DNA from: Candidatus Zymogenus saltonus
GTDB taxonomy: Bacteria > Desulfobacterota > Zymogenia > Zymogenales > Zymogenaceae
Assembly (NCBI GenBank): GCA_016929395.1
Contig: JAFGIX010000090.1
Location: 1-57,971, forward strand
DNA: 57,971 nt
Direction: 5' to 3'
Positions 8,941 to 12,128 of the stretch are shown piece by piece. Every line of letters starts with the position of its first letter. Position 1 is the stretch's first letter. The notes beneath the pieces were generated by a model. It was not told the origin of the DNA and did not search any database. It saw nothing but the letters and a program-made list of their open reading frames with translations. The position numbers were made by a program, and so were the translations under genes.

Positions 8941-9468
8941 ATGGCTAAAAAGAAAAGAACATACAACCCAAATCTGATCAAGACAAGGCATTCTTATAAT
9001 CTTTCAGAAATAACTCAAATTTACGGTATAGACATAAGGACTGCATATAGCTGGAGAAAACGGGGATTGAAGGCCATTGATGAGAATAACAGGCCCTACC
9101 TTTTTTGGGGAGAAGAAATCCGGCGGTTTTTAGATGAAAAAAGTAAGACTAAAAAACATACGCTTAAGCCAGGAGAGTTTTTTTGCACTAAATGCCATGC
9201 TCCAAGAAGAAGCCTTAACAACAAGATTTCCATTGAAAATACAGATAGAAGCCTCGGTAAAAAAAGCAAGCAGGTTTATTTAAAGGGGATCTGCAATGTT
9301 TGCGGGCAAACTCTTTATCTATTTTATTCGGATAAAAAACTTGAACAATTACTGGCATCAGGATTGATCGTAAAGGAACATGATACATATCTATATGGGA
9401 GTGGCTACAGCTCCGTAAACATTCAGTTAGAAAAGGTCAATATCAATGAAGCCAAATATCAAGAATGA
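8941..9468 (+). CDS. HTH and zinc-ribbon DNA-binding protein paired with a recombinase
   Basis: A 175-residue protein. Residues about 16-65 read as a helix-turn-helix (LSEITQIYGIDIRTAYSWRK), then a lysine-rich linker. A likely zinc ribbon follows: CTKC near residue 83 and CNVC near residue 119. Its 3' end overlaps the start of the recombinase at 9446 by 23 bases, so the two are co-transcribed and probably coupled. A role as accessory or directionality factor for the recombinase is inferred from this pairing. No obvious Shine-Dalgarno precedes the ATG. Composition is AT-rich like the rest of the element. Confidence 0.72.
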   Translation: MAKKKRTYNPNLIKTRHSYNLSEITQIYGIDIRTAYSWRKRGLKAIDENNRPYLFWGEEIRRFLDEKSKTKKHTLKPGEFFCTKCHAPRRSLNNKISIENTDRSLGKKSKQVYLKGICNVCGQTLYLFYSDKKLEQLLASGLIVKEHDTYLYGSGYSSVNIQLEKVNINEAKYQE

Positions 9469-10528
9469 AAGGATAAAGAGAAGATTTTTCAGATGGCTGA
9501 AAGAGGCGAATGGTTGCTGTGAAGCCACTGCCGGCAATGTAGAAAAGGCCCTGTCTTTATATGAGGATTTTACCGGATATGCGGACTTTGCTTCATATAA
9601 TCCAAACACAGCTATAGAGTTTAAAAAACGGCTAAAAGAACGGAAATACAGAGGCAAAACAATCTCACTTACAACCTATCACGGTTACCTCAAAAACATC
9701 AAGAAATTCTTTTTATGGCTGTCATGGCAGGATGGATATAAGAGTAAGATAAAGCCCGACATGGTCGATTATTTAAACATCTCCGATAAAGAGGAGAGGA
9801 TTGCAAGACAAACCAAACCTATAAATTACCCGTCACTGGACTACGTGATTAAACTAACTGATTCAATAGCAGTAAACACCGAAGTCGATTCAAGAGACAG
9901 GGCTCTTATATCCTTTACCCTTCTAAGCGGGATGCGCGTTAAGTCTATAGCAACGCTGCCACTGGGCTGTTTCGACGAGGAGACACAAACAATCAATCAA
10001 GATCCCAGATTGGGAGTCCAAACTAAGTTTTCGAAATGCAACCGCTCGGTGCTGTTTAATTTTGACGACAAATTGGTCAAGCATGTAACTGGGTGGATAT
10101 CATATATAAAGGCAAGAGGATTCGGATCACGAGATCCCTTATTTCCCAGGTCTAAAATAAGACAGGAAGAGAATGGGTTATCCTTTGAAGACTCCTTGGA
10201 GATTGAGCCGGTTTACTGGCAGGGAACCGGAAGCATCAGAAAAATATTTAAGAAAAGGAGCCGGGAGGCTGGATTGCCCTATTTCTCGCCCCACACTTTC
10301 AGACACCTGGCCGTAGATCTGGCAATTCAAAATTGCAGAACGGGTGAACAGATAAAGGCCGTCAGCCAAAATTTCGGTCATGAGTATATAGCAACAACTT
10401 TTTCCTCTTACGGAAATTATGATCAAAATAGGCTAACAGGGATTATTAAAAAAATGGATTTTTCAGGTAAACCTTCAATGCCTGAAGCTCAAAAACTCGA
10501 ATTAATAAGGAATATTGCTAATTCATAG
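9446..10528 (+). CDS. Tyrosine recombinase (first of two in the element)
   Basis: A 360-residue site-specific recombinase. The N-terminal core-binding domain spans about residues 10-100. The catalytic domain has Arg164 (SGMRVKS), His283 and Arg286 (PHTFRHL), His312 (FGHEY) and a nucleophile Tyr at 322 or 325. All the canonical residues can be placed, so it appears intact. An AAAGG ribosome-binding site precedes the ATG. It overlaps the HTH/zinc-ribbon gene upstream. It differs strongly in sequence from the second recombinase at 10874, so the two probably serve different sites or elements. Confidence 0.88.
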   Translation: MKPNIKNERIKRRFFRWLKEANGCCEATAGNVEKALSLYEDFTGYADFASYNPNTAIEFKKRLKERKYRGKTISLTTYHGYLKNIKKFFLWLSWQDGYKSKIKPDMVDYLNISDKEERIARQTKPINYPSLDYVIKLTDSIAVNTEVDSRDRALISFTLLSGMRVKSIATLPLGCFDEETQTINQDPRLGVQTKFSKCNRSVLFNFDDKLVKHVTGWISYIKARGFGSRDPLFPRSKIRQEENGLSFEDSLEIEPVYWQGTGSIRKIFKKRSREAGLPYFSPHTFRHLAVDLAIQNCRTGEQIKAVSQNFGHEYIATTFSSYGNYDQNRLTGIIKKMDFSGKPSMPEAQKLELIRNIANS

Positions 10529-10578
10529 TATTGAAAATCATTTTTTAAATTTTTCAATTAAAACTTCAATTTAGAAAA

Positions 10579-10764
10579 GTGAACAAGAGACTGTTAAACA
10601 TAAAAGAGCTTTCTGATTATATCGGCAAAAAACCTCAGACGATCAGAAACGAGATCTCCAAGGGTATATTCCCCATACCCCGCATCAAGCTTCGTGGCGC
10701 TCTGAAGTTCGATATAAAGGATGTTGATGATTTTATTGATGGGATCAAGAGGGAAGTTAATTGA
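10579..10764 (+). CDS. AlpA/excisionase-like small HTH protein
   Basis: A 61-residue protein with a GTG start and no strong Shine-Dalgarno. Residues 5-55 (LLNIKELSDYIGKKPQTIRN, then a K-F-D-I-K-D-V-D-D-F pattern) fit the small winged helix-turn-helix used by excisionases and AlpA regulators. It lies 51 bases after one recombinase and 110 bases before the tRNA-proximal integrase, the usual place for an Xis-type gene. It probably controls excision of the element, which is inferred from family and position. Confidence 0.75.
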   Translation: MNKRLLNIKELSDYIGKKPQTIRNEISKGIFPIPRIKLRGALKFDIKDVDDFIDGIKREVN

Positions 10765-10873
10765 CATGTGGGCGGAAAGGGTGATATAGTTCCTCCCTGA
10801 AAGGAGGTGATTATTCTTTTCGCCCGGCTCTACCATACCTTTCTTCATCACCCAGATGAGAAAGGAGTAAATT

Positions 10874-11968
10874 ATGGGCGTTTTTCAAAGATATAGAGAT
10901 AAAGACGGCAAACCATACGGACCATTTTTTGCCAGGTATCCGATTAAAAGGAATATGAACGGAAAGATCGTCTACAGAAGGGAAAGGGTGGGGACCAAAA
11001 CCGCGGCCAAAGCTCTCTACGCCGAGAAGACTGCCGAGTTCTATTCGAGGGAGCGAAACGGAATTCCGTATACCAGAAATCTTAAGTTTGCACAGCTGGT
11101 AGACTGGAATCTTGAACAACCCGGAGTAAAAGCAAAAAAATCTTTTAAAGACGATGTCCAGAGGTCAGGTACTCTCAGGAGGTATTTCAGTCACCTCAGT
11201 TGTTCGATGATAAAGCCTTCCAACATCGAGGCGTATAAGCAGAAACGGCTTCAGGAAACATCAAAAACTGGAAGACCTCCTCGGCCCGCGACTGTTAATC
11301 GCGAGCTGGCTCTTATGAAGAGCATGTTTAACCTCGCAGTCAGGGATGAGATTCTTTCTTATAATCCCTGCACCGGAGTTTCGATGTTGCCGGAAGAAAA
11401 CGAGAGAGACAGGGTACTGACCGGAGAGGAGTACAGTAAACTTCTGGAAGAACTTTCAGAGCCGGCAAAATCTGTTGTCCAGGTGGCATACTGGACTGGT
11501 ATGAGGATTGGTGAAATTATCAACCTGACCTGGGACAGGGTAAACATGAAGGAAGGCTATATTGATCTCGATTATGCCGACACAAAGACGAAACGGAAAA
11601 GGCGTGTATACCTTACCGATGGTGTTTCAAAAAACTTTAAGCACATTAACGGGGTAAGAAGTCTCACCCATAAGTTTGTTTTTATCAGTAAAAATGGAAG
11701 ACCTGTGAAGGGTATTCGCACCGCCTTTGAGGGTGCCTGCAGACGGGCGGGGATTAAAGACTTCGTGATGCATGACCTGCGCCATTGTTTTGCGACAAAC
11801 ATGAGGAAGGCTGGTATCCACGATTCGGTCATTATGGCACAGACGGGTCACAAAACGATGTCCATGTTCCTTCGTTACAATACTGTGGATGAATCGGACG
11901 GGAGAGGTGCCGTCAATAGGTTATCTGATTATCTCGATGGCGAGATAAAAAAAGTGACACAAAAGTGA
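10874..11968 (+). CDS. Tyrosine integrase next to tRNA-Arg
   Basis: A 364-residue phage-type integrase. The N-terminus is an arm-binding-like basic domain (residues 1-60), followed by a core-binding domain (about 70-165). The catalytic domain carries Arg211 (TGMRIGE), His300 and Arg303 (HDLRH), His326 (TGHKT) and Tyr335 (RYNT). An AAAGGAG site lies 7 bases before the ATG. Its stop is 82 bases from the 3' end of the tRNA-Arg gene, the standard layout of an element integrated into a tRNA 3' end. The integrase therefore most likely mobilised the DNA to its left, including the R-M operon. The catalytic set is intact. Confidence 0.93.
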   Translation: MGVFQRYRDKDGKPYGPFFARYPIKRNMNGKIVYRRERVGTKTAAKALYAEKTAEFYSRERNGIPYTRNLKFAQLVDWNLEQPGVKAKKSFKDDVQRSGTLRRYFSHLSCSMIKPSNIEAYKQKRLQETSKTGRPPRPATVNRELALMKSMFNLAVRDEILSYNPCTGVSMLPEENERDRVLTGEEYSKLLEELSEPAKSVVQVAYWTGMRIGEIINLTWDRVNMKEGYIDLDYADTKTKRKRRVYLTDGVSKNFKHINGVRSLTHKFVFISKNGRPVKGIRTAFEGACRRAGIKDFVMHDLRHCFATNMRKAGIHDSVIMAQTGHKTMSMFLRYNTVDESDGRGAVNRLSDYLDGEIKKVTQK

Positions 11969-11971
11969 CAC
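11950..11971. repeat. Tandem 11-bp direct repeat at the integrase 3' end
   Basis: AAAAGTGACAC occurs twice back to back (11950-11960 and 11961-11971). It overlaps the last codons of the integrase and sits about 80 bases from the tRNA 3' end. Short direct repeats beside an attachment core are typical arm-type integrase binding sites. That role is inferred. Confidence 0.5.
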
Positions 11972-12050
11972 ATGAAAGATTTTAAGTTTTTTTGTGAAGT
12001 AAAAAAAAGGGCGGATTCTTTGCCATATTCTTGAAATCATTGGGGAAATT

Positions 12051-12128
12051 TGGCGCGCCCGGCAGGATTCGAACCTGCGACCTACGGATTCGTAGTCCGG
12101 CGCTCTATCCGGACTGAGCTACGGGCGC
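12051..12128 (-). tRNA. tRNA-Arg (anticodon ACG), attachment target of the element
   Basis: The minus strand folds as a full cloverleaf: acceptor stem GCGCCCG with CGGGCGC, a normal D arm, anticodon loop CTACGAA (anticodon ACG, Arg), and T arm GCAGG-TTCGAAT-CCTGC. A discriminator G and an encoded CCA follow at 12053-12051. The first anticodon-stem pair appears mismatched (C-T). The 3' end faces the integrase. No second copy of the tRNA 3' end is visible in 1-12050, so the other attachment end lies beyond the window's left edge. Confidence 0.93.

Follow-up and report, generated by a model that had tools for sequence, protein, structure and literature searches.

A two-gene tyrosine recombinase module beside the integrase of a tRNA-Arg restriction-modification island in Candidatus Zymogenus saltonus

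Introduction

The role of each residue of the R-K-HxxR-H/W-Y set is known in tyrosine recombinases, and in integrons the intI-attI topology places the recombination site directly upstream of the recombinase gene. Islands with several integrases have also been described; excerpts of one account present the GInts as ginABCD islands with three integrases in one operon, all gin genes being essential (PMC5385486). The stretch analysed here, hereafter the window, is the entire 57,971-nucleotide contig JAFGIX010000090.1 (C90) of Candidatus Zymogenus saltonus, whose 3.76 Mb genome is assembled in 92 contigs. It contains two tyrosine recombinase genes beside a tRNA-Arg gene: YRB, the island integrase, and YRA, which is paired with HTHZ, the gene of a helix-turn-helix (HTH)/zinc-ribbon protein. 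This study revealed that HTHZ-YRA is an unnamed two-gene recombination module common in restriction-modification (R-M) islands. Because it is found next to unrelated integrases in numerous islands, at diverse sites, the pair is a recurrent island component and not a local accident.

The first-pass annotation had described two unlike tyrosine recombinases at this tRNA-Arg site, the tRNA-proximal one being an integrase of ordinary island type. Both points held, as did the coordinates: PF00589 is matched by both proteins, their phrog_1 scores are far apart (223.7 bits for YRB, 60.7 for YRA), and YRB adjoins an intact tRNA-Arg(acg). An AlpA-like gene between the two recombinases had gone unmentioned. 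An HTH_17-type gene is therefore present beside each recombinase, HTHZ for YRA and the AlpA-like gene for YRB, and the AlpA-like protein is likely the partner of YRB. The features concerned are as follows.

8941..9468, plus strand: HTHZ, excisionase/MerR-like HTH and zinc-ribbon protein of 175 aa, partner of YRA (HTH_17 20 bits, under the cut-off of 27)
9393..9428, plus strand: equivalent of the conserved site upstream of YRA, kept faintly (5.9 bits vs 23-50 in partner-less relatives)
9446..10528, plus strand: YRA, simple tyrosine recombinase of 360 aa (PF00589 45.6 bits, cut-off 27.1)
10579..10764, plus strand: AlpA/excisionase-like HTH_17 protein of 61 aa (HTH_17 26.9 bits, under the cut-off of 27; phrog_66)
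10874..11968, plus strand: YRB, island integrase of 364 aa adjoining the tRNA gene (PF00589 112 bits)
11954..11971, plus strand: arm-like direct repeat GTGACAC-AAAA-GTGACAC at the 3' end of YRB (sequence GTGACACAAAAGTGACAC)
12051..12128, minus strand: tRNA-Arg(acg), intact, the sole tRNA of the window (tRNA search)
12051..12099, minus strand: attachment (att) core, the 3' part of tRNA-Arg (copy on contig C32, 48/49 identical)

The HTHZ-YRA pair

The loci analysed were the best 80 of 266 stretches that passed the search criterion and lean towards relatives of the query; the R-M and integrase profiles were built from clusters of the same loci, and genes were called by a simple script. HTHZ was found directly upstream of YRA, on the same strand, in 68 of the 80 loci, and in the window the two genes overlap by 23 bases, which bears out the earlier suggestion that the second recombinase has an overlapping partner of its own. 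HTHZ was missing from the other 12 loci, three of which (L078, L101 and L120) lie at contig ends. On a megaplasmid of Ruegeria sp. TM1040 a single open reading frame matches both profiles as a fused HTHZ-YRA (L022, 1606-3213). Distances among HTHZ proteins and among YRA proteins correlate in each of two layouts (Mantel r 0.64 and 0.73, permutation p 0.0004 and 0.0002). At L022 a type I R-M block is flanked on one side by the fused gene and on the other by a C-terminal YRA copy (15097-15918) that looks identical in alignment.

All 50 aligned HTHZ members matched HTH_17, an excisionase-type family, at E values up to 0.01. In the two cysteine pairs, 82/85 and 118/121, residues C82, C118 and C121 are invariant among the 50 aligned relatives and C85 is kept in at least 90%. 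The structural model of HTHZ shows an HTH and a beta-rich second part (predicted local distance difference test, pLDDT, 81.7); its fold matches, which include gpNu1- and MerR-like DNA-binding domains, do not go below E 0.03. YRA residues R164, K197, H283, R286, H312 and Y322 were invariant in 44 of 44 aligned YRAs, all of them long open copies, and on these residues YRA is predicted to be a catalytically competent tyrosine recombinase. Its model (pLDDT 86.7) is that of a simple Xer/Cre-type recombinase, XerA (5hxy) being the best structural match (E 1.6e-8).

Another integrase, mostly of the arm type, occurs within 10 kb in 49 of the 80 loci (48 by a stricter count), and an R-M gene in 39. Both are present in 25 loci, in 21 of which HTHZ-YRA lies between the nearest of each. 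Among the 36 loci with at least 6 kb on both sides, an integrase was found in 25, an R-M gene in 22 and either in 32. Two layouts were distinguished. In the first, integrase, HTHZ-YRA and R-M genes all run in one direction; in the second, the order is R-M, c5, c4, HTHZ and YRA, with a convergent integrase at the YRA end. The window fits the second layout loosely, its c5 homologue (U2) being on the far side of the R-M operon. Genes for tRNAs of several kinds and tmRNA were also found near the loci. For the 16 loci of the first layout (integrase upstream, same strand), YRA and integrase distances gave r 0.10 (p 0.25), and mean identity was 64% for YRA vs 27% for the integrase. Between the Methylomonas locus L068 (type III) and L183 (type I), the sequence is 81% shared from -1061 upstream of YRA up to 35 bp short of its stop; backbone and module are common to the two, and the R-M types differ.

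Single-protein scans with the window YRA returned no relative in viral or genome contigs or in phage records; it was closer seeds (plasmid matches, then L041 and L042) that opened up the family. Four YRA relatives were found among 72,556 plasmid records and none among 50,697 phage records. Named hosts include Proteobacteria, Desulfobulbaceae, Nitrospirota, Nitrospinota, Acidobacteria and Gemmatimonadetes, with a patchy occurrence exemplified by 19 of 151 genomes in the family of the L068 host. The HTHZ search across the window's phylum matched 7 of 395 genomes, of which the window genome and two others (G125 and G144) were accepted; the other four matches, weak and partial, were set aside. YRA matches in G023, G026, G063 and G075 (E about 1e-4) were attributed to generic C-terminal similarity. 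Only one YRA was found in the window genome, and a second HTHZ-YRA past the contig end, conceivable since c5-c4 is normally followed by HTHZ-YRA, is unproven. The pair had no name in the libraries tried, and no paper listed in searches of open-licence literature, among which the gamma-mobile-trio paper did not figure, was recognised as describing it.

The conserved site upstream of YRA

A block conserved at the DNA level was found upstream of YRA, across the end of HTHZ (...GCACTGCRACACA/TARNYGAGAG-N5-ACCCWCCGTRAACAGTGACTT..., the slash standing before the TA discussed below). It extends to the ribosome-binding region and includes the HTHZ end. In 68 of 91 sources the right half of the site adjoins YRA; it also occurs at three other places in 1.57 Mb, two of which are read as frameshifted or decayed YRA copies; shuffled motifs gave 0-3 matches. 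No comparable conserved motif was found upstream of HTHZ.

Breakpoints in HTHZ-less YRA copies were counted from 14 rows, from which L083 (by eye, an insertion-sequence-like junction) and the HTHZ-bearing window were dropped; of the 12 copies left, three come from phage contigs. In 11 of the 12 the conserved part begins at TA, in alignment columns 28-32; the twelfth, L109, begins at column 22 by what is read as a chance run. HTHZ-bearing copies start at columns 0-10 in 61 of 63 cases. To the left of the breakpoint the HTHZ-less copies have unrelated DNA, no HTHZ stretch being present in any of the 12, and pairwise DNA comparisons put the edge at -56 or -57. L103 and the second YRA of L102 are 99.8% identical to the right of the edge and unrelated to the left, where L102 has a fragment of a c5 gene joined on; this is a young breakpoint case. 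Because the recurring edge adjoins a conserved block and a recombinase with an intact active site, the breakpoint may be the YRA crossover point.

A repeat search around YRA returned repeats in seven loci, among them tRNA-Pro repeats in L117 and the tandem YRA case in L102. The latter (L102, 8110-10462) comprises two tandem YRA genes about 118 bp apart, with a 53-bp c5 gene piece at the junction.

The tRNA-Arg island of YRB

The R-M operon noted in the first-pass annotation was found to consist of Mod and Res genes, and the YRB element appears to be an ordinary tRNA island with a type III-like R-M operon. The remaining features of the window are given below.

95..1213, minus strand: U1, 372 aa protein of unknown kind (open reading frame), placed where the c4 gene sits elsewhere
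1210..2319, minus strand: U2, homologue of the unnamed c5 family (c5 profile E 1.2e-19, 59 bits)
2331..5132, minus strand: Res-type restriction subunit, BPTD_3080 family (NF046055 1121.1 bits, cut-off 800)
5147..7816, minus strand: Mod-type N6/N4 DNA methyltransferase, in an operon with Res (MTase_III E 8.2e-149)
8048..8752, plus strand: small protein with a C-terminal Cys motif (weak CGNR zinc finger match, E 0.072, below cut-off)

On the minus strand the gene order is Mod-Res-U2-U1, the first two supplying the methyltransferase and the helicase-nuclease of a type III-like system. No library match was found for U1, and the c4 profile gave none, its likeness to c4 being positional only. The c5 family occurs upstream of HTHZ-YRA in 13 other loci, also on phage contig L046, and the one member tested had no Pfam match. 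G+C content is low over 7.5-12.5 kb (0.30-0.46 in 1-kb windows) vs mostly 0.45-0.60 right of 13.5 kb.

YRB ends about 80 bp before the 3' end of the intact tRNA-Arg(acg). A search for the displaced 3' end of the tRNA, the check proposed earlier for the far end of the element, gave a candidate: the last 49 bases are repeated, with 48 identical and no tRNA gene, at 4283-4331 of contig C32, which is not joined to C90. The arm-like repeat has a one-mismatch copy at C32 4138-4155 (minus strand), in the same orientation relative to the core at both places, and falls inside the presumed element at both att cores. Since both the tRNA core and the arm-like repeat recur there, C32 1-4282 is a candidate for the far end of the island. 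Genes read by eye in this candidate (172-3712) encode a photolyase, a TspO-like protein and two small membrane proteins. The protein adjoining the far att (C32 4703-5287), V4R-like by eye, had 12-21 matches in each of four genomes searched. Of the relatives compared for an empty site, G002 and G003 carry tRNA-Arg(acg) in a different context, with no synteny to either side of the window tRNA and no island integrase noticed within 20 kb, and in G001 the tRNA was not matched.

A decayed related element was found on contig C86 at a second tRNA-Arg core, where window positions 7460-7990 and 11579-12096 are matched at 88% and 86% and the intervening 3.6 kb (CGNR, HTHZ, YRA, AlpA and the YRB N-terminus) is replaced by 34 bp. 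Because this decayed relative adjoins a second tRNA-Arg core, YRB-type elements have used two tRNA-Arg genes in this genome. An intact tRNA-Arg(tct) lies at 94846-94921 of the same contig and a second core near 105.3 kb. In the region C86 94.8-106.4 kb (L031 6846-18363) the two tRNA-Arg(tct) cores are separated by 10.4 kb and integrase genes adjoin each of them; the region represents tandem islands, the outer one being the decayed relative of the window element. A further fragment, matching the YRB C-terminal part at 62% identity, was found near tRNA-Leu and tRNA-Ala on contig C28 near 29.7 kb (L007 1519-1821).

Discussion

On the whole we lean, if only slightly, towards a tRNA island of YRB that carries an independent HTHZ-YRA module with its own crossover site. 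YRB and the AlpA-like protein would have inserted the R-M island into tRNA-Arg(acg), the window representing the integrase end. HTHZ-YRA would be a second, self-contained recombination module of other specificity than YRB, composed of a simple Xer/Cre-like tyrosine recombinase and an Xis-like HTH/zinc-ribbon protein, and would pass between islands independently of the island integrase, usually coming to lie between integrase and R-M cargo. In the relatives, YRA may make the observed breaks by strand exchange at a site of its own, which lies where the HTHZ gene ends, some 57 bp ahead of the YRA start codon; the DNA upstream of YRA would be swapped or lost as the outcome. HTHZ may steer YRA, cargo turnover would be the benefit, and the diverged copy in the window may still work.

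Several observations weigh against this proposal. Neither excision nor a circle was observed. Of 15 whole genomes, 12 matched the site, with 10 exact places (one per genome) and four one-mismatch places and no partner site; a chromosomal attB sharing the YRA-side half-site is unsupported by this search. Seven of the eight genomes with HTHZ-less YRA have no HTHZ elsewhere and hence no reciprocal junction, which likewise gives no support to the idea of a circularly permuted element with HTHZ at its far end. The window's own site scores 5.9 bits, and its YRA is an outlier with 30-39% identity to the other members of A10. Moreover, co-inheritance is suggested for the convergent layout, where YRA and integrase distances are correlated (r 0.40, p 0.001) and the 3' ends of the two genes, in 10 of 18 loci, abut or overlap within 38 bp.

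The arrangement could instead reflect nested or tandem elements, HTHZ-YRA being the integrase cassette of a second element (phage or satellite) and each recombinase moving its own. YRA is the sole PF00589 protein in four of four viral records, none rated at least 90% complete; in L046, by eye, c5, HTHZ and YRA precede primase, terminase and portal genes; and a RepB-primase gene (c9) precedes HTHZ in nine loci. Yet the pair recurs beside other integrases in the 49 loci mentioned, a motif scan of the flanks found no second copy of either half-site that would bound a YRA-specific nested element, and the YRA and integrase genes overlap or abut in the convergent layout, so that we regard nesting as somewhat unlikely. 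The first-pass annotation had offered nested elements or a two-recombinase mobility system carrying the R-M operon. The R-M island and the genuine partner stand, whereas nesting is unproven: the pair recurs beside unrelated integrases, and no bounding repeats were seen in the motif scan. HTHZ-YRA goes beyond a nested accident, yet a two-recombinase mobility system is unproven.

It is clearly improbable that the conserved block is merely the YRA promoter and ribosome-binding region, the edge arising from selection against deeper losses and YRA being a relic or regulator. The block does reach the ribosome-binding region and contains the HTHZ end, and several YRA copies are broken (L019 by a nonsense change, L021 by a frameshift, the second copy of L022 partial and L192 interrupted), but random losses would leave HTHZ stretches to the left of the block, where none of the 12 copies shows one, and the catalytic residues are kept. 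An obligate pair, both recombinases acting jointly on the tRNA att site, would agree with the many loci in which YRA adjoins an island integrase and with L117, where an integrase remnant and YRA lie between tRNA-Pro 3'-end repeats. This we consider very improbable: YRA does not track the integrase in the co-directional layout, it stands alone in the viral records, and layouts vary.

A bolder form of the independent-module reading, in which HTHZ-YRA would act much like an integron, as a dock where defence cargo is loaded and R-M blocks are swapped in, between island integrase and cargo, at the site upstream of YRA, is unlikely. Cargo exchange may be the function, an attractive one because the module sits between integrase and R-M genes and because of pairs such as L068 and L183, though no partner site and no reciprocal HTHZ junctions were found and the window site is faint. 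If true, tRNA islands in several phyla would have a second and independent means of exchanging cargo. It is an open question how defence islands acquire and exchange their restriction systems, and HTHZ-YRA provides a concrete, testable enzyme and site for R-M turnover, separate from the tRNA integration step.

Comparison with known systems

The gamma-mobile-trio (GMT) model GmtY (NF040693) was listed for YRB only, at 12.6 bits against a cut-off of 340. As excerpted, PMC5385486 describes GInts that resemble the window: several recombinase genes stand together at one end of the island, a small helical protein is encoded, and the cargo includes R-M genes. The window differs in its two unlike recombinases, one with an HTH/zinc-ribbon partner and its own site; it has two PF00589 genes only, with an HTH_17 gene between them. 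Integrons are alike in the site directly upstream of the recombinase gene and the variable DNA beyond, a likeness judged from the site next to YRA alone, and differ in that HTHZ is normally fixed upstream of YRA; the integron integrase model TIGR02249 reached 19.1 bits against a cut-off of 265.

Simple tyrosine recombinases (Xer, Cre, RIT and Tn554 TnpA; PMC8138268) share the core-binding and catalytic domains with YRA, which differs in its HTHZ partner, no such pair being named in the excerpts of that paper. VPI-2 of Vibrio cholerae, likened here by description only from part of PMC12409362, is a tRNA island in which a type I R-M system is accompanied by two integrase genes. Closest to the YRB part are the tRNA-targeted islands with a tyrosine integrase and AlpA/Xis, which share with it the integrase beside an intact tRNA gene, a putative displaced 3' fragment, the arm-like repeats and the R-M cargo, and from which the window differs by its second, partnered recombinase.

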